Assembly: GCF_016463645.1 (NCBI RefSeq)
Contig: NZ_JAEMQX010000001.1
Coordinates: 8,441 to 72,440, forward strand
Source: Sphingopyxis sp.
GTDB taxonomy: Bacteria > Pseudomonadota > Alphaproteobacteria > Sphingomonadales > Sphingomonadaceae
Direction: 5' to 3'
DNA: 64,000 nt
The notes under the pieces were generated by a model. That model was not told the DNA's origin, searched no databases, and saw nothing but the letters and a program-made list of their open reading frames with translations. Positions 1,794-21,555 of the stretch are shown here, in pieces (positions within the stretch are counted from its first letter, which is position 1; every line of letters begins with the position of its first letter). A program made the position numbers and the translations under genes.

Positions 1794-2060
1794 ATGAAGC
1801 GTACGAGGTTTTCAGAAGAGCAGATCATTGGTGTGCTGAAGGAAGCGGAGGCGGGGGCGAAGACCGGCGAGCTGGCGCGGCGGCATGGGGTGTCGGAAGC
1901 GACGATCTACAACTGGAAGGCCAAGTATGGCGGTCTTGAGGTGTCGGAGGCGAAGCGGCTCCGCTCGCTCGAGGATGAGAACGCGAAGCTGAAGCGGCTG
2001 CTTGCGGACGCGATGCTGGACAATGCGGCGCTGAAGGATCTTCTCACAAAAAAATGGTGA
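1794..2060 (+). CDS. IS3-family transposase OrfA
   Basis: This 88-residue protein is the DNA-binding helix-turn-helix subunit of the IS3 transposase. It starts [19 protein letters not shown], followed by the recognition-helix region ([19 protein letters not shown]) and a leucine-rich coiled segment ([18 protein letters not shown]) used for multimerisation. It ends at TGA 2058-2060, seven bases into OrfB. On its own it usually acts as a regulator, and as the OrfAB fusion it forms the transposase. The ATG at 1794 follows the left inverted repeat by about 60 bases. Confidence 0.85.
2048..2054 (+). promoter_or_regulatory. Probable -1 ribosomal frameshift site (A7)
   Basis: A run of seven A residues lies just before the OrfA stop, and OrfB continues in the -1 frame from here. 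This matches the A-rich slippery sites used by IS3 elements to make the OrfAB transposase. The OrfB ATG at 2054 overlaps the last A, so independent initiation is also possible. Confidence 0.6.
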
Positions 2061-3146: not shown

Positions 3147-3734
3147 TCATCCCGAGGTAAGGAACATAATTTGAAATGCTTTATTATAATCAGTAAGATC
3201 TTCCCTGGGTTCGGATCGCGAAAGAACGTTTAGGCCAATTATCTGACCAAGAGCCATAGTAGCAATTCGACGTGCATCGACTTCGCTTTTTCCAAGTTCG
3301 ATGTAGGCATCTGCAATTAACCGAATCCGTTCTTGATCGACACGTTGGGTTGTTTTTGATGCCGCTTCAGAAACCCGGGCCCATTCTTGCAGGGCCCGCT
3401 CAACCGGTCCACCAGGGACATCGTACCTTTGATTAAATGCTAAACTGAAAAAATATCTTAGACGATCAATAGGATCGCTGAAACTGCGATTGGCGGCACG
3501 ACCAATTATCCTTGTTGCAGTTTCGTACCAATATGAGAGGGCATCATTCAAAAGTGCGTCTCTTCCTTTAAAATGCCAATAAAAACTACCCTTTGTAACA
3601 TTTAAATCTTTAGCAAGGGATTCTATTTGAATATTAGCGACACCCACCTCGCCAATGGTTTTGAGGGTGTGTTTTAGCCATGCGTCCTTCGATAGTTGCT
3701 TAGAATCGCCACTCTTACCCTTATCGTTAAGCAT
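3147..3734 (-). CDS. TetR-family transcriptional regulator
   Basis: A 195-residue repressor-type protein. The N-terminal TetR helix-turn-helix is clear: WLKHTLKTIGEVGVANIQIE, then LAKDLNVTKGSFYWHF, a signature of the family. It is followed by an all-helical ligand domain with LRYFFSLAFNQ and a long C-terminal helix bundle. The start chosen is ATG 3734, which has GGGA five bases upstream. A longer frame exists to a TTG at 3812 but has no ribosome-binding site. Base composition is clearly AT-richer than the catabolic and tra genes, which suggests separate acquisition. No convincing partner gene is adjacent because both sides are insertion-sequence debris. The ligand is unknown. Confidence 0.85.
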   Translation of the reverse strand: MLNDKGKSGDSKQLSKDAWLKHTLKTIGEVGVANIQIESLAKDLNVTKGSFYWHFKGRDALLNDALSYWYETATRIIGRAANRSFSDPIDRLRYFFSLAFNQRYDVPGGPVERALQEWARVSEAASKTTQRVDQERIRLIADAYIELGKSEVDARRIATMALGQIIGLNVLSRSEPREDLTDYNKAFQIMFLTSG

Positions 3735-6605: not shown

Positions 6606-6908
6606 CGCCGGTCCTCCTCAATGATTGGGACGCTCGATCCCGTCTGATGCTCAAATTTCGGCATCTGGCAAAACAGCCGAGAAGTCTCGGTGCAATTGCC
6701 GGAGCTGTGGGGCTCGTCGTTTCGGTCATAGTTCATGGATGGGGCGCTTTCTGGTATTACCAGCCCCGCCTGGTCCGGACATGTAGCGCCCCTACAGCAA
6801 TCACGGCAATGCGTGAGTAGACCGCCTACTCCAATGACGTGACCCCAATCGAGGTGATGCTGGAGAGTACAGCTTGACTTTAATTCAGCGTTCCCTCCAG
6901 CCGTCAGG
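6606..6908. other. Gap between TonB receptor and reductase genes
   Basis: About 300 bases with no motif-bearing frame. It separates two genes that read in the same direction, so it may contain a promoter for the reductase or be a scar of a lost gene. A ferredoxin gene would fit here functionally, but no CxxxxCxxC or Rieske motif is encoded in any frame. Confidence 0.4.
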
Positions 6909-9095
6909 TTAGAATCTTAATTCTACACTTGCACCTATTTCGCGTGGGCGCTCATAAATGATGTATGCCCCGAGCGGACCCGGTGAGATCTGTTGAGCCA
7001 CCGCTTCATTCGTAAGGTTCTTGGAGTAAACCCGGAATGTCAGATCATCATCTGGGCTAATCCAGCCGATCTCGGCTGAAAGCAGTTCATATGAATCCTG
7101 ACCGAAAATGTTGAGGTAGTCGTAATAAACCTCACTCGAATGAAACAGGTTGCCGCCGATAAATGCTTCACCCTGAAACGCATCGAAAGTGTAGCGACCA
7201 CCCAGCGTCAAAGTGAATTCTGGCGTACGGACAAGTTGATTTCCTGATGCGTCAGCCGAGGCAACCATGTTTCCCCCACCGGGCTGAGGAATGAACACCT
7301 GCGCACTTTCAAATTCATCGTAGGTGGCATGCGTGTAAGCCAGGGCAGCTCTCAGATTGAGGCCTCGCGTGGGCTCTGCTGAAAGTTCAAGCTCACCGCC
7401 GTAGATTTCCGCGCTTGCAGCATTCTGAAGAACGAAGGAATTGTCCGCCGCCCGCGCGGTAACTTGCAGATTGTCATAGGTATAATAGAAGGTCGCAAGG
7501 TTTGCGCGTAGCCATGGGAATGGATCGGATTTGATGCCGAATTCCAGTGCTTCGATGGTTTCGGGTTCGACAGCAACGCTGGAAGCGCTGAACGTGTTAA
7601 ACGTGCCGCTCTTAAAGCCTGTCCCATAGGTCGCATAAAGGTTCAGGTCAGGTGAAGCTTCATACTGGACAGCCACCCGATAGGTAAACTTATCGAAATC
7701 TTCTTCTGCATCGGAGAAGAGCTGATTCCCGTTAATCCGTTGAGAAAACTTTCGTGTTTCAGTGGTGAACCGCCCGCCCAGAGTTACCGAAAGCCTTGGT
7801 GCCAACTCATAGGTTCCTTCGGCGAATGCCGCTATCGAAGAGTTCTTGACTTCAGGTTCAATCGTGATCGGCGTAACAGGGGTCGCCGTATCCTGGCGAT
7901 TTATTAATATGAGCGGCTGCTCGCCCTCAAGCTGGTAGTAATAAACGCCGGCAGTCCAACTTAACGGACTGGCATTGTCCGAAATCAGACGAAGTTCCTG
8001 CGTGAATGTGTCGGGCTTTACCCGCATGTTCGTTTCACCAAGGAGGATGTTGGTGGCATCGGAATCTGCGATCTGATGGACGCGCGTCTTCATATAAGAA
8101 CTAGTCGATTCAAGCATAACTCCGCCCAGATCAATCTGCCCCTTCAGCGCAAGATCGAGACGGGTGAATTCCGACAAGCCCGGTGTTCCAAAGGCGAAGT
8201 TCGAGATTTCCCAAGGCTCGTCAGAGATGATCGCTCCGGCGAATTGTGCGCCACGGGTGTTGCCTTCAAAAGGCTGGGCGGTCGCCGCAGTTTCTTCGTG
8301 CGTATCGACGTAGGCAACCGTCAGAACGAACTCAGCATCGTCGCTAGGTTGAAACAACAGCTTGGATCTGATGGAAGCAATTTCGGTATCGCCGACTGTG
8401 CCGCCGCTGACCAAGTCAGTCGCGTATCCATCTTGATTTCGGTACAGTACCGCCAGATCGGCAGCGATCGAGTCTGTCAACCCGCCGGTTGCATAGGCGC
8501 GGATGTCGAAATTGTTCGAGTCTTCGCGCAGTCGGCCCCAGCTTCCCCTTACCCAGGCCCGTGGCGCGAACTGCGGATCCGGCGTCACGACGTTAACCAA
8601 ACCGCCGGTCGCATTACGACCGAATACCGTACCTTGCGGTCCGCGCAATACCTCTACCCGCGAAACTTCGACGAGATCAATCTGTGTCGAATAAGGATCG
8701 CCTTGGTACACCCCATCGACATACACGGCGACGTTCGATTCATCACCCACTGAGGTGCCGCTGGATCCTACGCCACGGATACTGGGCTGCATCACGTTCT
8801 GATTGCGCCCGCCATTGAATCCGGGCACAAGCTGGTTGAGTGAACGGACCTGCTCGACGCCGGATGTCGTCAGCGCTTCGGTAGAAACTGCCGTCACCGC
8901 GACTGGCACTTCCTGCAGGCTTTCCTCACGGCGAGTGGCGGTAACGATAATCGTCCCATTGCCTTCCTCAGCCTGTGCCTCGGTCGCTCCTGCGAACTCG
9001 CCCGCTTGATCCTCAGATGCACCCTGCGCAAAAGCTGCGGCCGGGCAGAGCAAAACCGGCAGCGCAGCCACCGTTGTTAAAAAGTATACTTTCAT
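6909..9095 (-). CDS. TonB-dependent outer-membrane receptor
   Basis: A 728-residue receptor that imports a substrate across the outer membrane using TonB energy. A signal peptide (MKVYFLTTVAALPVLL, cleaved near AFAQ) is followed by a TonB-box region GTIIVTATRREESLQ, a plug domain (VPVAVTAVSTEAL, IRGVGSSG, VEVLRGPQGTVFGRNATGG) and a beta-barrel ending in the expected aromatic residue (VELRF). The start is ATG 9095, with GGGGAGG five bases upstream; a longer frame to 9116 has no such signal. It lies between the acyl-CoA ligase and the reductase in the catabolic unit, which points to uptake of the aromatic substrate rather than a siderophore. The substrate is inferred from context only. Confidence 0.9.
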   Translation of the reverse strand: MKVYFLTTVAALPVLLCPAAAFAQGASEDQAGEFAGATEAQAEEGNGTIIVTATRREESLQEVPVAVTAVSTEALTTSGVEQVRSLNQLVPGFNGGRNQNVMQPSIRGVGSSGTSVGDESNVAVYVDGVYQGDPYSTQIDLVEVSRVEVLRGPQGTVFGRNATGGLVNVVTPDPQFAPRAWVRGSWGRLREDSNNFDIRAYATGGLTDSIAADLAVLYRNQDGYATDLVSGGTVGDTEIASIRSKLLFQPSDDAEFVLTVAYVDTHEETAATAQPFEGNTRGAQFAGAIISDEPWEISNFAFGTPGLSEFTRLDLALKGQIDLGGVMLESTSSYMKTRVHQIADSDATNILLGETNMRVKPDTFTQELRLISDNASPLSWTAGVYYYQLEGEQPLILINRQDTATPVTPITIEPEVKNSSIAAFAEGTYELAPRLSVTLGGRFTTETRKFSQRINGNQLFSDAEEDFDKFTYRVAVQYEASPDLNLYATYGTGFKSGTFNTFSASSVAVEPETIEALEFGIKSDPFPWLRANLATFYYTYDNLQVTARAADNSFVLQNAASAEIYGGELELSAEPTRGLNLRAALAYTHATYDEFESAQVFIPQPGGGNMVASADASGNQLVRTPEFTLTLGGRYTFDAFQGEAFIGGNLFHSSEVYYDYLNIFGQDSYELLSAEIGWISPDDDLTFRVYSKNLTNEAVAQQISPGPLGAYIIYERPREIGASVELRF

Positions 9096-9142
9096 AAAAC
9101 CTCCCCAATTTGGCATAATAAAATTAGCAATCTATTCCTGTA

Positions 9143-10804
9143 TTACTTTGCAGTAATTTTATTGCCTTGCTTCCTCAAAAAATCTCTAGCCAGTTTCTCG
9201 AGCCTCTTTTTGTCCGGCTTGCGTGCGGGCGTCTTTGGAAGCTCGTCAAGCAAGACGATTGCTCGCGGAATCTTGTAGTTGGTCAGGTGCTCGGCGCAGT
9301 GATTTAGGAGTGTCTTTTCAGTAATCCCGGCCCCCTGGTCGATTGCTACAAAAGCAAAGGGCACTTCACCCTTGCGATCGTCAGGCACTGAGATTACAGC
9401 CACATCCGTGACCTCCGGAACTTGGGAAATTACTTCCTCGATCTCGCTGGGATAGACATTAAATCCCGCAACAATGAGCATGTCTTTCTTGCGGTCGACG
9501 ACTGTCAGAAAACCATCCGAAGTCAAACATCCGATGTCCCCGGTGGGGAGCCATCCGTCATCTGCACATGGTGGAAGGCCCATGTATTGCTCAATGACAC
9601 GTTCTCCGCGGATCAAAATTTCACCGTTCTCATTCGGATCCAGCCGCTTGCCACTTCCATCGAGCGCAGCAATGGCCACCTCGATACCGGGCAATGGGAG
9701 GCCAGCAGTGCCGTACTTGTGCGAGCCGTCGAGTGGTTGCGCCGTCAGTGGGCCGCCTTCTGTCATGCCAAATGCCTCGAGTATCGGAAGGCCGGTCTTG
9801 GCCTCCCAACGCAGAAGGGTTTGCCGAGAGAATACCGAACCGCCGCCAGGGCACAGCCACAGCGCAGATAAGTCGGCATCAGGGGCTGCAAGGAGTCCCT
9901 GATAGATAGCCGCCGGACCACCGCTGAAGACGCTGACCCTGTGCTTTTCCATCAGACCTGCCGTGACGTCTGGCTGGAAGCGCGGAACGATTACGAGGGG
10001 AGCGCGCCCATAAACAGGATTGAAGCACCCCATGTGCAGGCCCCAGACATGGCTGACGGGGGCAACATTAAGCCAGACTTCTTCGTATAGGCGAGTAGGC
10101 CAAGCGGTTTGCATTGCCTTGATGCAGCTCATTTCCGAGCTTTGAGAGCGCCGGACACCCTTCGGTGCGCCCGTCGATCCACCCGTAAACATGATTATAC
10201 AGGGGCTTTCGCCCGTTATTTCGAGTCCCGGCCGCTCTGGCGGCGTTTCCAGCAACTGCTCGATCGCAATGCCGCCCTCGCCCACGATCGCTAGTGGTTT
10301 ACCAATGCTGCCGGCGGTGGCACCGGCGACCGTGGCGTTCTGTCCACCCGCCAGAACGAGATCGGGCTCCGCAATCCCGAACAACACTCCAAGTTCGCGC
10401 GGCGTATATTCGGCATTGACCATCGAAATCTCGGCACCAGCGCTCAATGCAGCGAAAATGGCGACGTTTGCCTCGATAGAATTCGGGATGGAAATCGCGA
10501 CACGGCCTGATGGCGGGACAATCTCGCCAATGCGCGCAGCGAGACCTGCAACCGCAGAACCGTACTGCTCGTATGAGAGTTTTCGATCTCCCTCAATCAG
10601 TGCCAGCTTTTCAGGACAAGCTTCTACCGCGTCCCAGAACATGGTCACGACATCACTATATTCTTCGCGCAGGAAAGCTCGATCGCCTTCACTGAGACGA
10701 CGAAGTATCTCGGTTCTGGTTTTCGACATCTGCATAAATACCATTTCGCCGGAAACTGTGTTAAGGATTTTGCGGCCAAGAAATACGGCTAGCGAGGATT
10801 TCAA
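9143..10804 (-). CDS. AMP-dependent acyl-CoA synthetase / ligase
   Basis: An ANL-superfamily enzyme of up to 553 residues that activates a carboxylic acid with ATP and joins it to CoA. Conserved motifs are present in order: the P-loop MFTGGSTGAPKGV, AFGMTEGG, the TGD motif before the hinge, DRKKDMLIVAGFNVYP and SEIEE. The C-terminal A10 region is PKTPARKPDKKRL, where the usual GK pair is replaced by RK, so the catalytic lysine assignment is uncertain. The open frame begins at a TTG overlapping the hydrolase stop (TTGA). Internal ATGs at 10744, 10735 and 10729 are alternatives and no strong ribosome-binding site decides. It probably activates the acid released by the upstream C-C hydrolase. 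Confidence 0.88.
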   Translation of the reverse strand: MKSSLAVFLGRKILNTVSGEMVFMQMSKTRTEILRRLSEGDRAFLREEYSDVVTMFWDAVEACPEKLALIEGDRKLSYEQYGSAVAGLAARIGEIVPPSGRVAISIPNSIEANVAIFAALSAGAEISMVNAEYTPRELGVLFGIAEPDLVLAGGQNATVAGATAGSIGKPLAIVGEGGIAIEQLLETPPERPGLEITGESPCIIMFTGGSTGAPKGVRRSQSSEMSCIKAMQTAWPTRLYEEVWLNVAPVSHVWGLHMGCFNPVYGRAPLVIVPRFQPDVTAGLMEKHRVSVFSGGPAAIYQGLLAAPDADLSALWLCPGGGSVFSRQTLLRWEAKTGLPILEAFGMTEGGPLTAQPLDGSHKYGTAGLPLPGIEVAIAALDGSGKRLDPNENGEILIRGERVIEQYMGLPPCADDGWLPTGDIGCLTSDGFLTVVDRKKDMLIVAGFNVYPSEIEEVISQVPEVTDVAVISVPDDRKGEVPFAFVAIDQGAGITEKTLLNHCAEHLTNYKIPRAIVLLDELPKTPARKPDKKRLEKLARDFLRKQGNKITAK

Positions 10805-11643
10805 TTGCGACGGAGAAATGCGCGTATTTGGTCCAGAAACTGATGCTCACGCTCTAGCTGGACCCAGTGGCCGCATTGACCATAGACATGCATCTCGGAG
10901 CGCTTGAGGTGTTCGTGCATTCGCACTGCAACATGCAATGGAATCATCTTGTCTTCGCGGCCGTGCAGAATCAGCGTTGGCGCATCGATAGCTTTCAACT
11001 GCTCCAGCGGAATGCCCTTGACGATTCGTGGACCTTTCGATGCTTGATCAGCGCCAGGCTGCAGCTTGCGGATTGTCTCTTTCCCGCTGGCGATTTCCGC
11101 CACACGCAGGCGCGCGGCCACTGCCTCGTCGGTAACTATTGACGGATCGTATGGGAATGCCTTCATCATAGCGCGCATGGCGTCCATGCTGGGCTCGAAG
11201 GATCGGCTGTCCGCCAATCCCTGCGTCTGCTCAAACTCACCAGCCGGTGTGCCCATAAGAATAAGCGAGCGCACCTTGTCGGAATGAAAAGCCATCATTC
11301 CCAGCGCGAGGGCACCACCGAAGCTGTTGCCGACCAGCGTTACGCGGTCGAGGCCAAGGGCTTCTATAAAGCCCGCCAGATGCCGCGTCCACAGTTTGAT
11401 GCCCGGCTTCTCTCCTTCAGGCAGTTGGCTAAAGCCGAAGCCCACGATGTCGGGGGCCAGAACCCTGTGCGTTTCCCCAAGTTTTGGTAGGATTCCTCGC
11501 CAGTTTTGCCAGGCGGTCACGCCCGGACCCGAACCGTGAAGGAGGATGACGGGGTCACCTTCTCCACAATCGTGATAATTTGTCTGGATACCGTCGACGT
11601 CTATCGACAACCCGATATCGGGAAGCTCCGTATTACCGGGCAT
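10801..11643 (-). CDS. Alpha/beta hydrolase, meta-cleavage product (C-C bond) hydrolase
   Basis: A 280-residue serine hydrolase of the BphD/MhpC/CarC type, which splits the vinylogous ketoacid made by extradiol ring cleavage into a carboxylic acid and 2-hydroxypenta-2,4-dienoate. Visible are the oxyanion motif HGSGPG at 36-41, the nucleophile Ser107 in GNSFGG, an Asp in LILHGREDKMIP and the catalytic His in QCGHWVQLE. The start is ATG 11643, with GGAGAG just upstream; a longer frame to 11889 would overlap the divergent SDR gene. It is the first gene of the leftward unit and is preceded by the shared operator-like element at 11711-11730. The acid side of the substrate is not known. Confidence 0.9.
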   Translation of the reverse strand: MPGNTELPDIGLSIDVDGIQTNYHDCGEGDPVILLHGSGPGVTAWQNWRGILPKLGETHRVLAPDIVGFGFSQLPEGEKPGIKLWTRHLAGFIEALGLDRVTLVGNSFGGALALGMMAFHSDKVRSLILMGTPAGEFEQTQGLADSRSFEPSMDAMRAMMKAFPYDPSIVTDEAVAARLRVAEIASGKETIRKLQPGADQASKGPRIVKGIPLEQLKAIDAPTLILHGREDKMIPLHVAVRMHEHLKRSEMHVYGQCGHWVQLEREHQFLDQIRAFLRRN

Positions 11644-11710
11644 ACCTCTCTCCAAAGCAGCATTTCGCCAAATTCTTCTTCCTTGTCTGTTGCGAGGGAC
11701 CTTGGAAGAT

Positions 11711-11730
11711 GTCAATACGCTGGAGTATGG
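11711..11730. promoter_or_regulatory. Operator-like element, copy 1 (hydrolase/SDR divergent promoter)
   Basis: The element reads GTCAATACGC, two variable bases (TG), then GAGTATGG on the plus strand, and contains an ATAC-N6-GTAT inverted repeat. Eighteen of twenty positions are identical to the copy at 20120-20139. It lies 68 bases upstream of the hydrolase ATG and 43 bases upstream of the SDR ATG. It is a candidate binding site for the IclR regulator; the binding is inference. Confidence 0.6.
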
Positions 11731-11773
11731 ATGGTTGATGTGAAATAGACAAAAAACCAGAGGGTGAGAATTG

Positions 11774-12562
11774 ATGGGAAAACTTTCGGGCCAAACAGCG
11801 TTAATCACTGGCGCGGCTTCAGGTATCGGCAAGGCAGTGGCGATACGTCTCGTCGAGGAAGGAGCGAATGTAGTTGCGTTGGATCGCAATGCCGACGCTC
11901 TCGCGGATTTGTCGGATCACTTGGGGGATCGGTGCTCTGTCCTCGCGGGAGATTGCACAGAGGCTGCGATCTGCGAAGCGGGCGTCGAACTTGCGCAGGA
12001 AAAATTCGGAAAACTGGACACCACGATAGCGAACGCCGGCGTTTACGACTGGTACAAGCGTATAGATCGCATGAAAATGGAAGACGTGGAGGCAGCGTTC
12101 GAGGAATTGTTCCGAATTAATGTGCTGTCGACTTTGCTCTTGGCGCGAGCTTCCGCAGATGCGTTGCGGAAATCCACGGGCTCTCTGATAGTGACCTGCT
12201 CCAATGCTAGTTTCAGAGCTGGCGGCGGTGGCACATTGTACACTGCCAGCAAGTTCGCACTGCGGGGCATAGTTTATCAACTTGCTTATGAATGGGCGCC
12301 GCAAATCCGCGTTAACGGCGTTGCTCCTGGCGGGACTGTCACGGGCCTTTCGGGATTGGACACACTGGAGAGCGCATCGCGTCGTCTCGATTCCGAACAG
12401 CGCACAGTTGAAATGGTGGCGAAGGCATCGCCACTGGCAAGGGCGGCAGAGGCGGAAGATCATGCCGGATGCTATGTGCTTCTCGCGTCACCTAGAGATG
12501 GAGTAAACCTAAATGGAACGATCCTGGTCAGCGATGGCGGATTGATCTCGCGAATGGGTTAG
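11774..12562 (+). CDS. SDR-family cis-dihydrodiol dehydrogenase
   Basis: A 262-residue short-chain dehydrogenase. The cofactor motif TGAASGIG lies at 12-19, NAG at 87-89, and the catalytic Ser143, Tyr156 and Lys160 are in the S-x12-YTASK pattern. The segments NASFRAGGGGTLYTASK and RVNGVAPGGTVT resemble BphB/HcaB-type enzymes, which rearomatise a cis-dihydrodiol to a catechol using NAD. The start is ATG 11774 after GAGGGTGAG. It is transcribed divergently from the hydrolase from a shared intergenic region carrying the operator-like element. In the proposed pathway it follows the ring-hydroxylating oxygenase. Confidence 0.85.
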   Translation: MGKLSGQTALITGAASGIGKAVAIRLVEEGANVVALDRNADALADLSDHLGDRCSVLAGDCTEAAICEAGVELAQEKFGKLDTTIANAGVYDWYKRIDRMKMEDVEAAFEELFRINVLSTLLLARASADALRKSTGSLIVTCSNASFRAGGGGTLYTASKFALRGIVYQLAYEWAPQIRVNGVAPGGTVTGLSGLDTLESASRRLDSEQRTVEMVAKASPLARAAEAEDHAGCYVLLASPRDGVNLNGTILVSDGGLISRMG

Positions 12563-12572
12563 GCCGAGCACT

Positions 12573-13370
12573 TCAAGTCTTGTTACTTCGCTTCTCGCGA
12601 ACCTCGTCCCCTGGCATTCGCAAAACATCGGAAACTGCCTCTGCCGCTTCAACGATGCGCGGAAAAAGCGTCAGCAAATCCTGTTCCGCTTTCTCGGGAT
12701 CAACGTCGTTGCAGACCTCGGTGACTGACACCGCCGCCAACAGGCCGGTCCTGCCCCGTATCGGCACCGCGAGGCAGCGCAGCTCTGGATACATCTCCCC
12801 TCGATCTATCGCCCATCCCTGTCGGCGTACGCCGTTGATTTCTTGTCTCAGGTCATCGACATCGAATATTGTGTTGTCCGTAAGAGGAACGAAATCGCCC
12901 AAGGCAAGATAGTCTTCAAGCCTGTCCCGTTCCAGTTGAGCAAGCAGGGCCTTGCCAATCGCTGTGCAGTAAGCCTCGAGCTCGATCTCCTCCCGAGAAG
13001 GAGACCGTCGGCACCCGGATTCGGCCTTGACCAAATAGCGTACAAGATTGTCACGAAAGACGCCCAGATGCACCGTACGCCTGCAAGTCTTGGCGAGGTC
13101 TGCCATAATGGGCCGGGTTGCAGTGGTAATAATCGAATCGATATCCGCACGTACCGCTATTTCCACGCTGGCGATGCCGAGAGCGTATAATCCTCGACGT
13201 TGCCGGATTACAAATTTGCGCTCGACCAACGGCCTCAAGAGCCGGTGAGCTGTAGAAACGGGAATGCCGGTATGTTCGCAGATTTCCCTTACCGTCTTGG
13301 GCGCCGACGAAAGGCAACCGATCAGGTCGAGTATTCGCTCGACAACCGATGTGCTGGATGCATCGTTCAT
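12573..13370 (-). CDS. IclR-family transcriptional regulator
   Basis: A 265-residue regulator. The N-terminal winged helix reads VVERILDLIGCL, then TVREICEHTGIPVSTAHRLL, and is followed by the IclR effector domain with YCTAIGKALLAQL and LRCLAVPIRGRTGLLAAVSV. The start is ATG 13370, with GAGAGGAG seven bases upstream; the longer frame to 13460 is unsupported. It is convergent with the SDR gene (10-base gap) and divergent from the hydratase gene. It is the only regulator inside the catabolic cluster, so it very probably controls it, as IclR proteins do for many aromatic pathways. The effector may be a pathway intermediate. Confidence 0.92.
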   Translation of the reverse strand: MNDASSTSVVERILDLIGCLSSAPKTVREICEHTGIPVSTAHRLLRPLVERKFVIRQRRGLYALGIASVEIAVRADIDSIITTATRPIMADLAKTCRRTVHLGVFRDNLVRYLVKAESGCRRSPSREEIELEAYCTAIGKALLAQLERDRLEDYLALGDFVPLTDNTIFDVDDLRQEINGVRRQGWAIDRGEMYPELRCLAVPIRGRTGLLAAVSVTEVCNDVDPEKAEQDLLTLFPRIVEAAEAVSDVLRMPGDEVREKRSNKT

Positions 13371-13391
13371 CTTGTCGCTCCTCTCACAGAG

Positions 13392-13408
13392 TGAGGCTCT
13401 AGGCCTCA
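13392..13408. promoter_or_regulatory. Palindrome next to the iclR start
   Basis: TGAGGC and GCCTCA are exact inverted repeats separated by five bases, ending 22 bases upstream of the iclR ATG. This position suits autorepression of the regulator or control of the divergent hydratase unit. The site is seen directly; its role is inferred. Confidence 0.45.
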
Positions 13409-13425
13409 ATTGCCGCCGGTCAAGC

Positions 13426-13440
13426 TTGGCAGGGTGCCAA
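13426..13440. promoter_or_regulatory. Second palindrome in the iclR/hydratase gap
   Basis: TTGGC and GCCAA are inverted repeats with a five-base spacer, the same geometry as the palindrome 18 bases away. The two have different half-sites, so they may bind different proteins. Binding is inference. Confidence 0.35.
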
Positions 13441-13611
13441 ACGATAGCGCACAGACACAAACATAGATTGAAGACGCCGTTTTCGAACCGTGCCGGATTC
13501 GCTGACTGCTCAGATTGGACGGGCGGTGAATTGCTCGATGGTGGCCAGGAGACGAGATCGGCAAAAGATACAAGGGCGTTTCGATGCGCACGTTTGGGAG
13601 AATTTAAGGCA

Positions 13612-14403
13612 ATGCCACTCGAAAGTTCAATAATATCTTCCCTGGGTGATGAACTCTACGGCGCACTGATCAAGGGCCGAACGGTTTCCAATCTGCGGGA
13701 TCGCCATCCGGAGATAGATATTGTCGACGCCTATCGCGTCCAGGAACGAATGGTCGCGCGCCGTCTGGAAGCTGGCGAAAAGATCATCGGCAAAAAGATC
13801 GGCGTTACTTCCAAAGTGGTGCAGGAAATGATCGGGGTGTTCGAGCCTGATTTCGGACAATTGACCGATCGAATGCTGGTTCCCGATTGCGCTACGGTAG
13901 ATCACAAATCACTCATCCAACCCAAGGCAGAAGGCGAAATTGCGTTCATCCTGCAACATGATCTCAACGGGCCTGGCGTGACCGCCGCCGATGTACTGGA
14001 GGCGACCGAATATGTCACTGCCTGTTTCGAGATCGTCGATAGCCGCATTCAAGACTGGGATATCAGAATTCAGGATACAGTCGCGGATAACGCCTCGTGC
14101 GGAATATTCGCGATAGGGACCGAGCGGGTCGATCCCCGTGAGATCGATCTGGCAAAAGTGGCCATGACAATCGAGTGTAATGGAGTCGAGGTTGCGAGCG
14201 GGATCGGCGCCGCTGTTCAGGGTTCCCCTCTTAACTCTGTCGCCTGGCTGGCCAATACGCTTGGCGAGCTTGGAATGCCGTTCAGGGCGGGCGAAATAAT
14301 CCTTTCCGGAGCACTTGGTCCGATGATCGACATATCCAGCGGTGACACGCTGCAACTTAACCTCAGCGACGGGCTTGGGTCCTGTCGCATGATTTTTTCT
14401 TAG
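13612..14403 (+). CDS. 2-keto-4-pentenoate hydratase
   Basis: A 263-residue member of the fumarylacetoacetase-like hydratase family (MhpD/BphH type). It adds water to 2-hydroxypenta-2,4-dienoate to give 4-hydroxy-2-oxopentanoate. Characteristic blocks are YRVQERMVARRLEAGEKIIG, KKIGVTSK, PKAEGEIAFIL (metal-binding glutamates), EIVDSRIQDWDIRIQDTVAD and SPLNSVAWLANTLGELG. The start is ATG 13612, with AAGG upstream and the usual family length; a much longer open frame to 13264 crosses the iclR promoter and is rejected. It is the first gene of the rightward lower-pathway unit, 78 bases before the dehydrogenase. Confidence 0.92.
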   Translation: MPLESSIISSLGDELYGALIKGRTVSNLRDRHPEIDIVDAYRVQERMVARRLEAGEKIIGKKIGVTSKVVQEMIGVFEPDFGQLTDRMLVPDCATVDHKSLIQPKAEGEIAFILQHDLNGPGVTAADVLEATEYVTACFEIVDSRIQDWDIRIQDTVADNASCGIFAIGTERVDPREIDLAKVAMTIECNGVEVASGIGAAVQGSPLNSVAWLANTLGELGMPFRAGEIILSGALGPMIDISSGDTLQLNLSDGLGSCRMIFS

Positions 14404-14481
14404 CCAATCGCGTGCTTCGGCAAGGATAGCAGCGAGGTGACAGACCTCGGCGCACTCTAGTGACAAAGTAAGGATGCTCGG

Positions 14482-15399
14482 ATGGACAAAATTAAATGCG
14501 CAATAATCGGGCCGGGGAATATCGGCACCGATCTGCTTTACAAACTGCTTCGTTCCGAAGTTCTCGAACCCGTTTGGATGGTGGGTATTGAGGCCGGATC
14601 CGAAGGTCTGGCCCGCGCGAAGGAACTGGGCCTCAAGACCACTGCTGAAGGGGTTGACGGGCTGGTGCCTCACGCGATCGAGGATGGAGTGAGCATCGCG
14701 TTTGATGCGACTTCGGCCTATGTCCACGCCGAAAACAGCCGCAAGCTGAACGAGCTGGGCATTCTTATGATCGACCTGACGCCCGCCGCCCTTGGCCCGC
14801 TTTGCGTTCCCCCGGTGAATCTCAAGGATCTGGCAGGCCGTAAGGCAATGAACGTCAACATGGTCACATGCGCGGGTCAGGCCACGATTCCGATGGTCGC
14901 CGCCATCAGCAATGTTCAAAGCGTGGATTACGCCGAGATAATCGCAACGGTCGCGTCGAAGTCGATCGGAGTGGGTACTCGGAAGAATATCGACGAGTTC
15001 ACGCGCACCACTTCTGCGGCAGTCGCGAAAGTGGGAGGTGCAGCGCAAGGCAAGGCTATCGTGGTCGTCAATCCGGCCGAGCCTCCGCTGATGATGCGTG
15101 ACACCGTCTATTGCGAAACAGTCGACGAGCCGGATCAGGAAGCGATCACCGCATCCGTGCACGAGATGATTTCTGCTGTGCAACAATATGTCCCCGGCTA
15201 CCAATTGAAGAACGGGCCAATTTTCGAGGGGCGCAAAGTCTCGATCTTTCTGGAAGTGCAGGGACTTGGCGATTTTCTCCCCAAATATGCAGGAAATCTG
15301 GACATCATGACTGCCGCTGCAGCGCGCACGGCCGAAATGTTTGCACAAGACATCCTTGATGGCCGACTTGAACTCTCACCATTGAAGGAGAACGCATGA
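14482..15399 (+). CDS. mhpF: Acetaldehyde dehydrogenase (acylating)
   Basis: A 305-residue enzyme that converts acetaldehyde, NAD and CoA to acetyl-CoA in a channelled complex with the aldolase encoded next. The NAD motif GPGNIG is at 10-15, the catalytic Cys130 is in [11 protein letters not shown], and the ending segments [19 protein letters not shown] and [16 protein letters not shown] are diagnostic of the MhpF/DmpF/BphJ family. Its stop overlaps the aldolase start (ATGA), consistent with equimolar translation of the two partners. The symbol follows the best-known homologue. Confidence 0.95.
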
Positions 15400-16439
15400 T
15401 GACACTCGAAGAACAGGTTAGGGGTAAAAAGCTCAAGCTGCATGATATGTGTCTGCGCGACGGCATGCATTCCATGCGGCATCAGATCACGCTGGATCAG
15501 ATGGTCGATATCGCTTCCGGGCTTGATGACGCAGGGGTGCCGTTGATCCAGGTCACTCACGGTGACGGGTTGGGAGGATCATCCCTGAATTACGGTCGCG
15601 GACTCCATTCGGATAGCGAATATATCTCGGCAGTGGCCAAGGTAGTGAAAAAGGCGACTATCTCGGTACTCCATGTTCCGGGCATTGGCACTCTGGATGA
15701 GTTGCGGATGGCCGCCGATTGCGGGGCAGGATGTGTTCATGTCGCCTCGCATTGCACCGAAGCCGACGTTACCGAACAGCACATTGGCCTGGGACGGGAA
15801 CTTGGGCTTGATACAGTCGGCTTTCTCATGATGGCGCATATGACGCCGCCCGAGCACCTGGTTGAGCAGGCGCTGTTGATGGAAGGGTATGGAGCAACAA
15901 CAATCTACTGTGTTGATTCGGCAGGTTACATGCTGCCTGATGAAGTTACCGATCGCATCACCATCCTTCGCACAGCTTTGCAGGACGAAACCGAGATCGG
16001 ATTTCACGCTCATCACAATCTCGGGATGGGAGTCGCCAATTCGCTGGCTGCTGTAGCCGCGGGCGCGGACCGCATCGACGGTTCGGCTGCCGGATTGGGT
16101 GCTGGCGCTGGCAATACACCCCTCGAACTGATGGCTGCCGTCGGAGAGCGATTGGGCATCGAAACCGGGGTGGATCTGTTTAAGCTGATGGACGTAGCAG
16201 AGGATCGGGTTTTGCCGATCATGCCTCAGCCGCCCCGTGCGGACAGGGATTCCATAACGCTCGGTTTTGCAGGGGTCTACTCAACCTTCCTGTATCAGGC
16301 CAAAGAAGCCGAACGTAAGTACGGCTTGTCTGCACGTGATATCTTGATGGAATTGGCTCGCAAGAAAATGATCGGGGGTCAGGAGGACATGATCGAAGAC
16401 ACCGCGCTCTCGATGGCCAAGGAACGCGATCTGGTTTGA
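15396..16439 (+). CDS. dmpG: 4-hydroxy-2-oxovalerate aldolase
   Basis: A 347-residue class II aldolase that cleaves 4-hydroxy-2-oxovalerate into pyruvate and acetaldehyde. The metal-binding HMGL-like barrel is evident: [18 protein letters not shown] near the N-terminus (Asp of LRDG binds the metal) and [18 protein letters not shown] (metal-binding histidines). DmpG-type ends follow ([18 protein letters not shown] and [16 protein letters not shown]). It overlaps the dehydrogenase gene by four bases and forms the channelled lower-pathway complex with it. It is the last gene of the unit. IS5-like debris follows. Confidence 0.95.
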
Positions 16440-16509
16440 CGGCGATTCAAGCACTTCAAAACAGAACGAAGTTACGAAAGGCGTTGCTGTCGCTCCTTGT
16501 CGGGAGGCC

Positions 16510-16740
16510 AAATTGGACGAGAAGTCCTCGGACCCACGCGACAGGGAGCGGACAACCTCATCACCGCAGGCTTTGCTAAGAACTCTGCCTGGGGTCGTAT
16601 CCTGCCGACCATTTGGCAAAGGCTCCGACCCGCCAAAATCGCGAACTCCCTGATTATCGGCGCTATATCGACTGTCACCTCATTGAAACCAAGTCTCGTT
16701 TTCTCTCCCGAAAGGGCAGACCGGCCATAGCGAAGCAATC
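16510..16740 (+). pseudogene. Decayed IS5-type transposase fragment
   Basis: In one plus frame the sequence PPKSRTPDYRRYIDCHLIE resembles the C-terminal region of IS5/IS427-type transposases (a P-D-Y block followed by an R-x-R-H-L-I-E block). Upstream, a stretch resembling ADNLITAGFAKNSAW fits the second conserved Asp region in another frame. Frameshifts and missing ends make it a relic. It fills part of the 550-base gap between the convergent aldolase and oxygenase-beta genes. The rest of the gap, to 16986, has no recognisable gene. The family call is tentative. Confidence 0.4.
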
Positions 16741-16986
16741 CACACTATCTTGCGCTGCCGATCCTGACATTGCGGAATTGTCAAGGCCGTGGGGTGTTCC
16801 GATCAGCTGCGGTGCCAGAAACGACACCTGCTTCTCTACATCGTTCCGAGCCACTTTTCCCGCACGGTGGCAGCCGCCAAGAGGCCGTCAGCAACAGCGG
16901 CAAGAGTACTTTCGGGCAACCTACGCCGCCAGGCCTATGCAACAGATTCGGCCCAGTTGCGGGCAAGCAGAAGGGCCTTCACACAA

Positions 16987-17532
16987 TCAAAGGAACGTAT
17001 TGATGTTCTTTGCTTGCAAGACAGTTTCCTGCAAGATGACCTTCCTGCGCGCCAGTTGGAGCAGACCTTCTGAGTTCCGCCTGATTGTATCGACGCGTCT
17101 GGCTTTTAGTTCCATTTCATCGTCTTCAGTCCGATGACGATGGTTGAGGATCACAGAATGGACCGTCCACTCGTTAGAATCTTCAGTAGGTAAGACCTCG
17201 ATATTGCCGATCAGGTGAAAATGCCTGGTGGGTGGATCTTCGGCCCATGCCGACGGCTGCTTGGCGCGTGCCACGCGGATCTTGAGATATTCGAGGCCGT
17301 CGTCGAAATAGGCCATTCGTTCGGAACTGAACTTCGCCTCATCCTTTCGATAGCGGGCCTGCACTCCTGGTACCCAATAATGGATATCGTCCGTCAGCAA
17401 TTCTAGCCATTCATCATATTGCTCGTTATCGAGCAAACGGGCTTCTCGATACAGAAACTGCTGTATCTCCAAAAGTAACTCGGCTGACACAGAGCAGTGA
17501 TCGCGCCGGGTGGTTTGTTCGAGAGTCTTCAC
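16987..17532 (-). CDS. Ring-hydroxylating dioxygenase, beta subunit
   Basis: A 181-residue small subunit of a Rieske non-haem iron oxygenase, with the cone fold of the NTF2-like superfamily. Family hallmarks are QFLYREARLLDNEQYDEWL, LLTDDIHYWVPGVQAR, a conserved region around RMAYFDDGLEYLKIRVAR and the HLIGNIEVLP segment. The start is GTG 17532, with AGAGG five bases upstream. Only 18 bases separate it from the alpha-subunit gene, so the two are co-translated partners of an (alpha beta)3 oxygenase. The substrate specificity is set by alpha. Confidence 0.93.
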   Translation of the reverse strand: MKTLEQTTRRDHCSVSAELLLEIQQFLYREARLLDNEQYDEWLELLTDDIHYWVPGVQARYRKDEAKFSSERMAYFDDGLEYLKIRVARAKQPSAWAEDPPTRHFHLIGNIEVLPTEDSNEWTVHSVILNHRHRTEDDEMELKARRVDTIRRNSEGLLQLARRKVILQETVLQAKNINTFL

Positions 17533-17550
17533 ATTTACCTCTGAATATTT

Positions 17551-18870
17551 CTAACGGACAGGAACGTCGGCCCAGGTTTCTGCACCCATCAGATCTGCCC
17601 AGCGCTGGTAGAAGGCCCGTTGGTTCGCTTCATTGATCTGGCTTTGATAAACATTGCCGCGCAGTTCCTCGTGTTCGATTTTCGAATCGAGGCCCATCCC
17701 GAAGTGAAGCTGTTGCTGCCGGGTCACCACGCCTACATTGACCGCCGTGCAATTCTCGAAGTTCTCGCCGTCATCCATTTCGAACACACCCGCCGGAGAA
17801 AAGGTTAACATTACCCCGCGGCGATATTCTTCCTTGAGTTCTTCCGGGGCATTTGCGTTCAGGAACACCCAGGTGTGAAGTTCCGTGCTCCTTGGACCCT
17901 TGGGGTTCCATGTCCGAAAAGTGTTGTGACCTGCCAGGAAGGAAAGATTGGGAAAGACGTTAGCGGAGCTTAGAGCGCCTACCATCCTGCTGCGAACCTT
18001 CCCCAGACGTTCGGCAAATTTCGCCTCCTGCTCACGCAGATAGTCGATAATCGGCGGTGAATTGAGCGTTGCCGCGTTCCCAATGAAATCCAGTCCAAAC
18101 TCCCAGCCGTGGCCGTTCGCATTGGCATGATAAGAACGGTCAGGTCGCATGGTCGGCTGTTTTCCGAACATTGCGATCAAGGCTGAGCTATGCGTCCAGG
18201 GAGCGTGATACGAGTCGCCCACGAAGTTCTCTGCCGGGAATTTCCAATTGCATTTGAGCCGAGATTTGATGTTGCCATCGATAAACTCGATACCACCTTC
18301 GTCATTGTCGAGGATCACATCTAGATACCAGCGAAATTCGCCTAGATATTCCTCAAGCGACGGGGCCTCCGGGTCGAAGCAGGCGAAATGCATCCCCTTA
18401 TAGCTTTCGACACGCGCCTTGTGCAGGCCAAGCTTGGACTTATCGAGGTTCGATTTTCCACTATAGGACTGCGGGCGACTGACATTCTTCAAGCTACCGT
18501 CGAGACCGTAGGACCAGCCATGAAAATTGCATGTGAACCGCCGGGAGTTGCCCGCCTCTGCAAAGCACACGCGATTACCTCGATGCGTACAGGAGTTGAG
18601 AAAGGTGTGGATCTTGCCGTCTTCGCCACGCGACACGATGACCGCATCTTCACCGATTGTCGTCGTTAGAAAATCGCCAACATTGGGCAATTGCGTGTCA
18701 TGCGCGACAAAAATCCAGCATCGCGCAAAAATCCGTTCAAGCTCCAGGTTGTAGATAGATTCGTCCCAGAAGATCCGGCGGTCAATATTTCCCGCTTCGG
18801 CGTCGACGAGTTCCTCGATGCCCGCAGCCAATTTTGCATTACTATCCGGCTTCAAGAGCGATTCAGTCAT
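17551..18870 (-). CDS. Ring-hydroxylating dioxygenase, alpha subunit (Rieske)
   Basis: A 439-residue catalytic subunit that inserts O2 into an aromatic ring. The Rieske cluster ligands are Cys94, His96, Cys114 and His117, in the CTH-x17-CNFH pattern. The mononuclear iron site has bridging Asp219 and ligands His222 and His227 (GDSYHAPWTH), with an acidic stretch FEMDDGENFEN supplying the likely third ligand. ATG 18870 follows GGAG by seven bases. It belongs to the oxygenase group that has a beta subunit, not to the homotrimeric carbazole oxygenases. It lies directly after the LigB-like ring-cleavage gene (31-base gap). Electron supply would be the reductase at 5352-6605 plus a ferredoxin located elsewhere. 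The substrate is undetermined. Confidence 0.93.
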   Translation of the reverse strand: MTESLLKPDSNAKLAAGIEELVDAEAGNIDRRIFWDESIYNLELERIFARCWIFVAHDTQLPNVGDFLTTTIGEDAVIVSRGEDGKIHTFLNSCTHRGNRVCFAEAGNSRRFTCNFHGWSYGLDGSLKNVSRPQSYSGKSNLDKSKLGLHKARVESYKGMHFACFDPEAPSLEEYLGEFRWYLDVILDNDEGGIEFIDGNIKSRLKCNWKFPAENFVGDSYHAPWTHSSALIAMFGKQPTMRPDRSYHANANGHGWEFGLDFIGNAATLNSPPIIDYLREQEAKFAERLGKVRSRMVGALSSANVFPNLSFLAGHNTFRTWNPKGPRSTELHTWVFLNANAPEELKEEYRRGVMLTFSPAGVFEMDDGENFENCTAVNVGVVTRQQQLHFGMGLDSKIEHEELRGNVYQSQINEANQRAFYQRWADLMGAETWADVPVR

Positions 18871-18901
18871 GTCATTCTCCAGCTATTCGAACCCGACCCG
18901 T

Positions 18902-19720
18902 TCAGGCGGGCAGTATCTCCGCAAAGCCGAGGCCGGTAACGCCGCCATCCCAGGCTTCGTAAGCGAGCACTTCGCCTCGGCCCGCCGGCAGAGCACCCAT
19001 CACTGCAAGAAAATGACGAATCTCCATTCCACCGTTGCCGCCTTCGCGCATTATTTCCTCGTCTGTCATTGAAAGGAGAGGGGTCGCATCGCCGGAAACG
19101 ATGCAGTCGAGGACCTTCCGATCAAACTCGGAATTGATGCGCCCCATTTCTCCGGTGCCCACCCAGTGGCTGATCCCTCCGCTGCCGATCAACACTACGG
19201 ATTCGTCTACGGGCATTTTCGCAATGGCATCGCCAATCATTCGTCCGAAATCATATGCCCTTTGGAGACGAACATACGGCGCTACGCCACTCGCCATATA
19301 AACGGGAACCGTCTTGACCGACCCGTCGGCCGGAAGGGCAAGCTGGGCGGGCACCCCGATTGCATGATCCACCCCCAAGTCGCGCGCCACAGACACGTCG
19401 AAGCCGCTTTGATGGGCATGGCCGACCAAATACTCTGCGAAACCCGGATCGCTGGCGATCGGTGAATCTCCAACACCGGGCAACCGGTCAATGGGACCAT
19501 GAAGCTCGCCTGTCGGGATAAGAAACTGTGGCAGACAGCGAGGGCCGAAGAGAATATAATGGTCCGCGCCGAAGATGATCGCCTTCGTCGCGCCGGACTT
19601 GCTTACTTTGTCGCGAATTTCCGAATAAGCGCCAATCAGGTGGTCGCGCTCTTTCTTCTTTGGGTTCACAAACAACAATGGATCATGCGGCATGATGAAG
19701 CCGCCGACTATTTCGGCCAT
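18902..19720 (-). CDS. Class III extradiol ring-cleavage dioxygenase, catalytic (LigB-like) subunit
   Basis: A 272-residue member of the LigB superfamily, which opens a catechol ring next to its hydroxyls using Fe(II). Likely iron ligands are His12 in MPHDP, His54 in GADHY and Glu255 in AYEAW. A conserved GVDHAIGVPAQL block supplies the acid-base histidine, and GSGGISHWVGTGEMG matches the family glycine-rich turn. The start is ATG 19720, with AGGAG upstream. It pairs with the small LigA-like gene 57 bases upstream, as in LigAB and CarBaBb. Coupling to a C-C hydrolase implies 2,3- or meta-type cleavage of a substituted catechol, which is inference. Confidence 0.9.
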   Translation of the reverse strand: MAEIVGGFIMPHDPLLFVNPKKKERDHLIGAYSEIRDKVSKSGATKAIIFGADHYILFGPRCLPQFLIPTGELHGPIDRLPGVGDSPIASDPGFAEYLVGHAHQSGFDVSVARDLGVDHAIGVPAQLALPADGSVKTVPVYMASGVAPYVRLQRAYDFGRMIGDAIAKMPVDESVVLIGSGGISHWVGTGEMGRINSEFDRKVLDCIVSGDATPLLSMTDEEIMREGGNGGMEIRHFLAVMGALPAGRGEVLAYEAWDGGVTGLGFAEILPA

Positions 19721-19777
19721 CTTGAAACTCTCCTAAAGATAGACGGGTAAGCGCTTCGCTGCCGCCGGCCTCTCACT

Positions 19778-20062
19778 TCATTCGCTTACCGTCTCGAGCT
19801 GTGACGTCAGCGTCGGAACGCGGGACAGATAATCCGGCATCGATTGCGGTCCGTTTACGCTTGTCCAGAAGCCCATCAGAAGCATCGGGTTAATGCCGTA
19901 CTCGAAGAGTCCCTCGGCATTCATGGACAAGACCATGTCGCGTTCTAGCTCGCTGAGGGCGTACTTCTCTGCGAAAGCTGTGGCATCCTCGCGAAACGCT
20001 GCGCGGGAATTCCGTTTGGTACTCACGTCGTAAAACAGTTGCTCGACGGCTCCAAAACTCAT
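19778..20062 (-). CDS. LigA-like small subunit of extradiol dioxygenase
   Basis: A 94-residue helical protein of the LigA family, which covers the active site of the LigB-like subunit in two-component class III extradiol enzymes. The SMNAEGLFEYGINPMLLMGF motif is characteristic of this fold. ATG 20062 has GGAAGGGA upstream. It is the first gene of a presumptive ring-cleavage/oxygenase operon, with the operator-like element 58 bases upstream of its start. The order of small then large subunit follows the ligA-ligB and carBa-carBb arrangement. Confidence 0.88.
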   Translation of the reverse strand: MSFGAVEQLFYDVSTKRNSRAAFREDATAFAEKYALSELERDMVLSMNAEGLFEYGINPMLLMGFWTSVNGPQSMPDYLSRVPTLTSQLETVSE

Positions 20063-20119
20063 CTGTCACGTCCCTTCCGGCACCTCAGATATCGTTCAAT
20101 CGGATCTTCGGGTCGAAAA

Positions 20120-20139
20120 GTCAATACGCAAGAGTATGG
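20120..20139. promoter_or_regulatory. Operator-like element, copy 2 (ring-cleavage operon)
   Basis: The element reads GTCAATACGC, AA, then GAGTATGG on the plus strand and matches the copy at 11711-11730 at 18 of 20 positions. It lies in the 123-base gap between the MDR reductase gene and the LigA-like gene, 58 bases before the latter's ATG. In the orientation of the downstream gene it is positioned much as copy 1 is relative to the hydrolase gene. Confidence 0.6.
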
Positions 20140-20185
20140 TTTTGCCTTCGAGGTCGCTGAGCCGGCCCAATCAGACCGTTTGCTG

Positions 20186-21160
20186 CTACATGGCAATCAC
20201 GACTTTACCTACCGTTCCGCGAGAGCGCAGCGACTCCATTGCTGAAACGAGTTCATCCATTTGATACACATCCCGAATTAGGGGGCGAATTTCGCCTCTG
20301 GCACATTGATTAACCAGCTTCTGCTGTATGGTGCGAATCGCTTCCGGCGAGCGGTCGAAGCTCCAGTATACACCGTGCACACTGGCGGACTTAACCAGCA
20401 TGTAGTTCGCCTTGAGCGCCTGAACCGTCCCACCGGCAAAGCCGCATACTAACAGCCTGCCCTCCCATGCCAGAAGACGCAGACTCTGTTCCGAAGTTTC
20501 GCCGCCGACCGGATCCATGACGATATCGACCCCATCTGGTGCCAGAGCTCTTACTCGCTCGGACCAGTCAGATTGACGATAATCGATCACATGATCAGCC
20601 CCATTCTCTTTAGCGATTCGCCGCTTGTCTTCGTCGCCTGCCGTGGCAACGATGCGAGCTCCCGCTGCTTTTGCAAGCTGAGTGGCAGCGATGCCCAATC
20701 CGCCTGCCGCCGCATGGATTAGGACCGTATCTCCCTTCTTGAGATTACCCTTTTCGAAAAGGGCGACATGGGCAGTGGTGTAGGAAACCGGAAGCGCGGC
20801 GGCCACCGAGGCTGGTAAGTCTCCTATCGCCATCAGACGGTCAGAAGCGACGCCACAATATTGTGCAAAGGCACCACTGCGGACCTGACATGCGACCTTG
20901 TCACCGGGAGAGAATCGAGAACCCGGGATTGCCTCGACGACCGTTCCCGCCAACTCGTTGCCTGGCACAAACGGCGGTTTTATCCGATCCTGATATTTTC
21001 CTGCAATCGCGATTTCGTCCGCAAAATTCAGACCTGCAGCGTCAATCTTGACCAGAGTGTCCGCCCGATTCTCTTGCCCTTCCCCCAGCTTCGGCATGGC
21101 AGTTTGTCCTAAGACCATCTCCTCCGGATTGCCATATTTCCTGACGATCCAAGCCTTCAT
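20186..21160 (-). CDS. Zinc-independent MDR (quinone oxidoreductase-like) NADPH reductase
   Basis: A 324-residue medium-chain reductase. It has the GroES-like N-terminal half (AGLNFADEIAIAGKY, PPFVPGNELAGTVVE), the cofactor motif HAAAGGLGIAATQLAK and the GGxxSEQSLRLLAWEGRLL region of quinone oxidoreductases. The zinc-binding Cys/His set of alcohol dehydrogenases is absent. The start is ATG 21160; a longer frame to 21259 lacks a start signal. It reads in the same direction as the ring-cleavage genes, 123 bases upstream of them. Its role is not obvious from the core pathway; it may reduce a quinone or enone intermediate, or an alternative substrate. Confidence 0.85.
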   Translation of the reverse strand: MKAWIVRKYGNPEEMVLGQTAMPKLGEGQENRADTLVKIDAAGLNFADEIAIAGKYQDRIKPPFVPGNELAGTVVEAIPGSRFSPGDKVACQVRSGAFAQYCGVASDRLMAIGDLPASVAAALPVSYTTAHVALFEKGNLKKGDTVLIHAAAGGLGIAATQLAKAAGARIVATAGDEDKRRIAKENGADHVIDYRQSDWSERVRALAPDGVDIVMDPVGGETSEQSLRLLAWEGRLLVCGFAGGTVQALKANYMLVKSASVHGVYWSFDRSPEAIRTIQQKLVNQCARGEIRPLIRDVYQMDELVSAMESLRSRGTVGKVVIAM

Positions 21161-21555
21161 GGTTTCCAACTCAAACTCCCGTGTCCGCAAATTACCATTC
21201 GCATAGGTATGGAGATTGCGGCAAGACTGCAATTGGGGCATAAAAGCAATGGCTCGCATGAATTTCCGAGCCTTTTCCCCTCTGGCCTAAAAACCGGCCG
21301 CACTGAGTGGTCCGCACCGATTGTTTCTACAAGTCTGCTTCTGGCACCAATACGGTCCGCTGGTGGAACGTGGCGGAACGGGATGGCAGCCGTGGCGGTG
21401 TCACGCCTTCCCTGGAACAAGGCCGATAGTGAAACGAGCTGTGAGACCCGGCGGTGCTGTATCAAGGTCAAGCAGTAGTCATTCGCTTATACAGGTATCA
21501 TTCGCCGGATCTGTCCGATGCGCCATCGTCGAAGCGAGAGACTGAGATGATTACC
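21161..21555. other. Promoter-side gap with a possible weak operator and an IS end
   Basis: No gene was found. Bases 21194-21212 match 13 of 19 positions of the operator-like element and lie 34 bases before the MDR reductase start. Bases 21286-21312 resemble the GAGTGGTCCGC terminal repeat found at 151-177 and 29481-29504, which marks the end of a lost insertion sequence. Confidence 0.4.

Follow-up and report, generated by a model that had tools for sequence, protein, structure and literature searches.

Repressors of the TetR family act through palindromic operators, and control of their own promoter is usual among TetR regulators, though not universal. The LysR-type regulators BenM and CatM recognize sites of the form ATAC-N7-GTAT. 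In the titles and abstract openings of the open-access literature searched, no sphingomonad TetR regulator with an operator of the kind treated here was described. Among regulators of the IclR family, PheR represses the phenanthrene genes of Sphingobium SHPJ-2; its minimal motif is reported as GCAACG, and its footprint as 44 bp long, from -21 to +23 (PMC13273656). For the IclR family at large, a comparative study gives the consensus sequences GKTYCRYW3-4RYGRAMC and TGRAACAN1-2TGTTYCA (PMC8222616).

In this study, a stretch of 64,000 nucleotides from Sphingopyxis sp., here called the window, was analysed. A first-pass annotation of its letters had pointed to a 20-base element shared by two arms of an aromatic catabolic cluster and had named an IclR protein encoded between them as the probable binder. 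Comparison across related genomes leads to another reading, which we hold with good though not full confidence as the best explanation of the whole: the element would be the operator of a TetR-family regulator encoded at 3147-3734, and IclR would act on a separate palindrome. Thus, a plausible but probably wrong regulator assignment is replaced by one that is testable with a single gel shift.

Results

The three copies of the element and the genes around them are the following.

11711..11730, minus strand: site A, GTCAATACGCTGGAGTATGG; dyad at 11713-11730, between the divergent hydrolase (minus) and SDR (plus) genes
20120..20139, minus strand: site B, GTCAATACGCAAGAGTATGG; dyad at 20122-20139, upstream of ligA-ligB-RHO alpha-RHO beta (minus)
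21195..21212, minus strand: site C, a variant of the dyad, 34 bases before the MDR reductase ATG (minus)
6909..9116, minus strand: TonB-dependent receptor gene, further downstream in the same direction as the next two
9143..10804, minus strand: gene of the AMP-binding (acyl-CoA ligase) type that follows the hydrolase gene; its upstream start codon is uncertain
10801..11643, minus strand: meta-cleavage-product hydrolase gene, proposed target of A
11774..12562, plus strand: SDR gene for an HcaB/BphB-like dihydrodiol dehydrogenase, possible second target of A
13606..16439, plus strand: dmpE-dmpF-dmpG-like lower-pathway genes, divergent from iclR, with no ATAC dyad upstream
16987..17532, minus strand: ring-hydroxylating dioxygenase (RHO) beta subunit gene
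17551..18870, minus strand: RHO alpha subunit gene
18902..19720, minus strand: LigB-type ring-cleavage dioxygenase gene
19778..20062, minus strand: LigA-like subunit gene, proposed target of B
20186..21160, minus strand: MDR/zinc-binding-type reductase gene, proposed target of C

A ferredoxin reductase gene also belongs to the cluster around the sites, and the best PDB match of the RHO alpha subunit is biphenyl 2,3-dioxygenase (2gbw). The cluster proteins (window 5352-21160) are 99-100% identical in Pelagerythrobacter aerophilus, and likewise in Sphingopyxis indica for the part that it holds (L053, L056), which probably reflects recent transfer between genera. Genes of the integrase-core and IS66 transposase types stand on either side of the cluster (window 2054-2965, 25500-27179 and 29794-30702). 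TraC- and TraG-type conjugation genes lie on the same contig (window 37910-40444 and 52795-56529, plus strand), and the cluster may be carried by a conjugative element.

The core of the element is an 18-bp dyad, CCATAC-N6-GTATGG. The two long copies are exactly where the first-pass annotation had placed them, with 18 of 20 positions identical, and their distances from the leftward starts were confirmed at 67 bases from the hydrolase ATG (11643, minus) for site A and 57 bases from the LigA-like ATG (20062, minus) for site B. Site A had been assigned to the hydrolase gene, upstream of which it does lie; the region is divergent, however, and the same site also stands 43 bases before the rightward SDR ATG (11774, plus). 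The weaker third copy that had been reported at 21194-21212 is real, with its dyad at 21195-21212. A palindromic site is present at each of the three proposed target promoters (A, B and C).

In the window, only A and B fall within three mismatches of the 20-mer (0.02 expected from 100 shuffles), and a genome-wide search gave the same two places in 4,546,207 bases, with one place for the reversed control. The pattern ATAC-N6-GTAT occurs in the window at exactly two places, A and B, where 0.08 are expected. A matrix built from 15 sites outside the window, several of them from near relatives, ranked B, A and C as the top three places in the window with 29.2, 27.9 and 20.9 bits, against 11.3 bits for the next-best place and a maximum of 17.1 bits in 20 Markov-shuffled windows. 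Moreover, CCATACNNNNNNGWATKG is found at three places in this genome, which are A, B and C. Taken alone, the core is common enough in the genome, where ATAC-N6-GTAT occurs at 8 places against 11 for its reversed control, and this is what could be said for chance or unselected similarity. The long match is nevertheless unique in the genome, and the position and sequence of the sites are kept while most intergenic DNA drifts, with co-occurrence across genomes in addition (below), so that chance was strongly disfavoured already and is hardly credible as an account of the element.

The IclR orthologues led to eight named loci and to six genomes of the family with at least 64% identity, the genome of the window included; some clusters were reached twice (L053/L061, L054/L062, L058/L065). 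Sites A, B and C are all present in L060, L063 and L064, with the dyads at the same places as in the window. Sites A and C were found in L059, C only in L058/L065, and A in L054, L055, L056 and L057, stretches on which ligA and MDR had no match. Site C precedes the MDR gene in all six aligned loci, the window among them. In the alignments the dyad stands out as conserved within intergenic sequence that has mostly drifted, the other kept blocks of region A being two ribosome-binding regions and CTCGCAACA. The nine A regions count as fewer than nine independent cases, because the copies in L053, L056 and the window are nearly identical. CCATACNNNNNNGWATKG occurs at 18 places in six genomes; 14 of these lie in the clusters described here, including all three of the window's own genome, one lies before the hydrolase gene of a second P. 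marinus cluster, and three lie elsewhere. With few matches in the genome and a position that is kept in related clusters, the element is the shared, cluster-specific and operator-like one that the first-pass annotation had described. Its conservation, like the association with a TetR subfamily described below, is established by comparison of sequences.

A search with the 20-mer and three mismatches was too loose across 397 genomes of the family, 301 of which matched, and further matches at this threshold were not counted as sites, such as those inside the AMP-ligase gene (L060:5231, L063:5582, L064:2274). A P. marinus place 277 bases before the TonB ATG (L054:13174, three mismatches) was likewise rejected as a site; the stretch upstream of the TonB gene (L054:13120-13200) resembles a decayed region A, with a CTCACCCTCTGA block and a degenerate dyad. 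The dyad CAATACGCACGAGTATGC occurs in the same 32-base context at L156:2128 and L159:10998 (P. marinus and A. zhengii). Outside the cluster, the dyad CCATACGGCCAAGTATTGAC stands about 140 bases before a TonB receptor gene at L082:14839 (G187:C15:32839), where it is either a target or a chance occurrence.

Two regulator genes and one further palindrome enter the question of the binder.

3147..3734, minus strand: regulator of the TetR family (195 aa), encoded about 8 kb from site A and proposed to bind A, B and C
12573..13370, minus strand: regulator of the IclR family, unlikely to be what binds A, B and C
13383..13395: palindrome CTCAC-N3-GTGAG directly before iclR, a putative operator of IclR

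The protein encoded at 3147-3734 contains a TetR_N domain (35.5 bits against a cut-off of 24), and the recognition-helix region of its subfamily is mostly GSFYWHF-like. The PDB held no characterised close relative, the best match being a remote one to YxaF (1sgm, E 3.4e-6). Homologues with 57-100% identity are encoded in G000, G089, G187, G313 and G315 (G313 100%, G089 65%, G187 61%, G315 57%), followed by G004 with 44% and five other genomes with 29-34%. Seven of the eight named genomes encode a homologue, six at 58-100% and P. marinus at 44%; in the remaining one, a Sphingopyxis MAG with site A (L057), none was found. L059, L063 and L064 have the tetR gene linked to the cluster; in A. zhengii and S. 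bauzanensis it lies on a different contig.

The assignment to IclR was at first accepted, as IclR orthologues and motif co-occur. CCATAC-N6-GTATTGAC was found in 10 of the 397 family genomes, namely in five of the six with an IclR orthologue of at least 64% identity and in five of the 391 others, the exception among the six being G315, whose sole site is C. The IclR assignment was dropped when four of the five motif sites in genomes with no IclR orthologue proved to stand at a TetR gene, and further when the TetR gene was found in the window and the IclR homologues showed a different palindrome. In these four genomes (G132, G188, G260, G046), the motif lies where the TetR gene starts, and another dyad is adjacent to it. 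In the fifth, G321, it precedes a hydrolase gene whose product is 41.5% identical to that of the window, within a row of dioxygenase, SDR, hydrolase, BphC and dmpEFG genes that has a TetR gene and a second, perfect dyad before the dioxygenase gene; no protein of G321 matched the IclR of the window, and the nearest IclR_C domain is about 28 kb away. Co-occurrence with IclR cannot separate the two regulators, because the TetR gene co-occurs with the sites too.

The distant homologues of both regulators were compared. Among 34 TetR matches, 29 were distant, of which 25 (26-44% identity, E up to 1e-13) had loci and four with no locus were left out of the scan. ATAC-N6-GTAT was found within about 1.5 kb in 16 of these 25 loci, where Markov shuffles gave 0.15, and in 12 of 21 after the four loci first met through the motif (L117, L135, L140, L143) were dropped. 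In contrast, it was found in none of six distant IclR loci, and it was absent from two further IclR plasmid loci of 18-19 kb. On plasmids outside the family, the dyad was present in 4 of 12 TetR loci (0.02 expected); the 12 were examined among 20 matches listed from 391 records, the other eight being Azospirillum, and those with no dyad include four actinobacterial and four Rhizobiaceae loci. The Burkholderia and Azospirillum records had been viewed first, the former because it also had a dioxygenase match. The Burkholderia plasmid carries hydrolase, LigA/LigB-type, RHO, hcaB and dmp genes in a row with a divergent TetR gene (38% over 144 aa) and CCATACACATACGTATGTGTATGG before the hydrolase gene, and there was no IclR among its 22 annotated features, a table that can be incomplete. 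In P. marinus, the TetR gene (44%) lies beside an MDR gene with an upstream dyad, and on another contig a perfect dyad precedes a second cluster, hydrolase-ligA-ligB-RHO; no IclR match was found on these stretches. The dyad thus persists in three comparable clusters for ring cleavage that have a homologous TetR and in whose vicinity no IclR was seen.

The dyad also stands at the start of the TetR gene itself in many of the distant loci. Tandem dyads about 45 bases apart occur at the starts of the TetR homologues of L134, L135, L140, L143, L117 and L165, where they probably serve control of those genes' own promoters. No ATAC-N6-GTAT was found within about 1.5 kb on either side of the gene in any of the five closest TetR loci, so TetR of the type in the window appears not to be autoregulated by way of the dyad.

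CTCAC-N3-GTGAG, with at most one mismatch, stands directly before iclR in nine close loci that hold the region, and in the window this palindrome is by far the best match to its matrix (20.6 against 11.2 bits). In eight distant IclR loci, the best match lies 18-40 bases before the approximate start; three of these were reached by none of 500 shuffles, two had p<0.05, and three were not significant (0.08-0.27). In each of the eight distant loci examined, iclR and either dmpE or dmpF point away from each other, and the intergenic region between iclR and dmpE in the window contained no ATAC dyad within four mismatches. Fit to the IclR group 1 consensus was 8-9 of 14 positions for A, B and C and 10 for the iclR palindrome, with a mean of 9.2 and a maximum of 12 for random 33-mers. 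Two other candidate contacts were set aside: the TTCTCACCCTCTGA block before the SDR gene, considered as a second IclR site, may more simply be the SDR ribosome-binding site, and GCAACA in region A, considered as an IclR contact, was only a lead from the PheR report (PMC13273656). The palindrome at 13383-13395 is probably the IclR operator; IclR would act there and perhaps also on dmpEFG, leaving A, B and C to another regulator.

That the IclR protein binds the dyads, perhaps besides its own palindrome, is unlikely. Its orthologues do share clusters with the sites, with the motif in five of the six genomes noted above, and this co-occurrence, as close as that of TetR, counts against TetR together with the 9 of 25 distant homologues that have no nearby dyad, the perfect site A of P. 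marinus, where only a 44%-identical TetR was found, and the MAG of L057, which has site A and showed no TetR homologue. Against the IclR assignment of the first-pass annotation, however, stand the dyads beside TetR genes with no IclR nearby, their absence from the distant IclR loci, and the palindrome of varying strength at the promoters of IclR homologues, which matches that at 13383-13395.

The binder could also be some other regulator, for instance a TetR from a different part of the genome, because 2 of the 22 TetR_N domains in the genome have ATAC-N6-GTAT within 1.5 kb. Nevertheless, the TetR gene at 3147-3734 shares the contig with the sites, which its orthologues accompany whether linked or unlinked, and the dyad marks its subfamily; another regulator is therefore improbable. 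An activator of the LysR type, as BenM and CatM on ATAC-N7-GTAT, would account for the similar half-sites, but the spacing was 6 in all 18 sites compared, not 7, and no LysR gene was seen among the proteins scanned from L060, L063 and the window (part of the genes), which makes such an activator very improbable.

Discussion

The TetR protein of 3147-3734 thus remains the preferred binder, and the promoter context of its proposed operators contains two further features.

11710..11715, minus strand: TTGACA, -35-like, sharing 3 bases with dyad A; putative promoter role
20119..20124, minus strand: TTGACT, -35-like, sharing 3 bases with dyad B; putative promoter role

All nine aligned A regions and all four aligned B regions, which are not independent, have TTGAC on the gene-proximal side of the dyad. 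It is absent from the six aligned regions of site C, which is nearer to its start codon than A and B. This overlap accounts for the asymmetric form of the 20-mer and for some of the agreement at 18 of 20 positions. CTCGCAACA (window 11688-11696, minus) is kept in all nine A regions, 17 bases after TTGACA, and could be a -10 region or a further contact; by pattern, TTGACA-N17-CAACA at A is no rarer than chance (one found, 0.39 expected).

We infer the physical binding of TetR, repression, an inducer, the promoter boxes, the operon limits and the targets of IclR, as follows. At site B, TetR would control the operon for ring attack and cleavage, ligAB plus the ring-hydroxylating dioxygenase; at A, the hydrolase, CoA ligase and TonB receptor genes together with the divergent SDR gene; and at C, the MDR reductase gene. 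Since the dyad overlaps the -35-like TTGAC at A and B, a bound TetR dimer would block RNA polymerase there, and a substrate or intermediate of the pathway would release it from both, whereas at C the regulator would probably act closer to the start site. IclR would bind elsewhere, at the other palindrome in the promoter of its own gene, and would regulate its own expression and perhaps that of dmpEFG. Activation from a site adjoining the -35 instead of repression is possible.

In a wider reading, whose chances appear evenly balanced, ATAC-N6-GTAT would be the operator code by which a TetR subfamily controls modules of aromatic catabolism in alpha- and betaproteobacteria. Two regulators would then divide the sphingomonad pathway, TetR serving uptake, activation with CoA, the attack on the ring, its cleavage and the hydrolysis step, and IclR serving the lower pathway of dmpEFG, with regulator and operators staying together through transfer between genera even where tetR is unlinked. 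The motif is offered for predicting targets of this subfamily in other aromatic-degradation clusters. Furthermore, these findings illustrate a pitfall, in that the conserved regulator gene nearest a shared operator is not necessarily that of its binder.

Compared with the systems described, the locus resembles that of PheR in having an IclR regulator of an aromatic-degradation cluster in a sphingomonad, and it differs in its CCATAC dyad in place of a GCAACG motif (PMC13273656). The IclR-family motifs of the comparative study resemble the iclR palindrome of the window in being palindromic and close to the start of the gene, whereas their half-sites are unlike CCATAC (PMC8222616). The BenM and CatM sites share the ATAC and GTAT half-sites with one base more between them, and belong to an activator family with no candidate found here. 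Unlike the usual TetR-family repressors, the close TetR genes have no dyad at their own promoter, and there are several target operons; like them, the regulator has a TetR_N domain, a short dyad over a -35-like element, and dyads at the own start of many homologues. The three-site operator regulon, most likely that of a TetR-family repressor, is genuine, ordinary in kind and new in detail.
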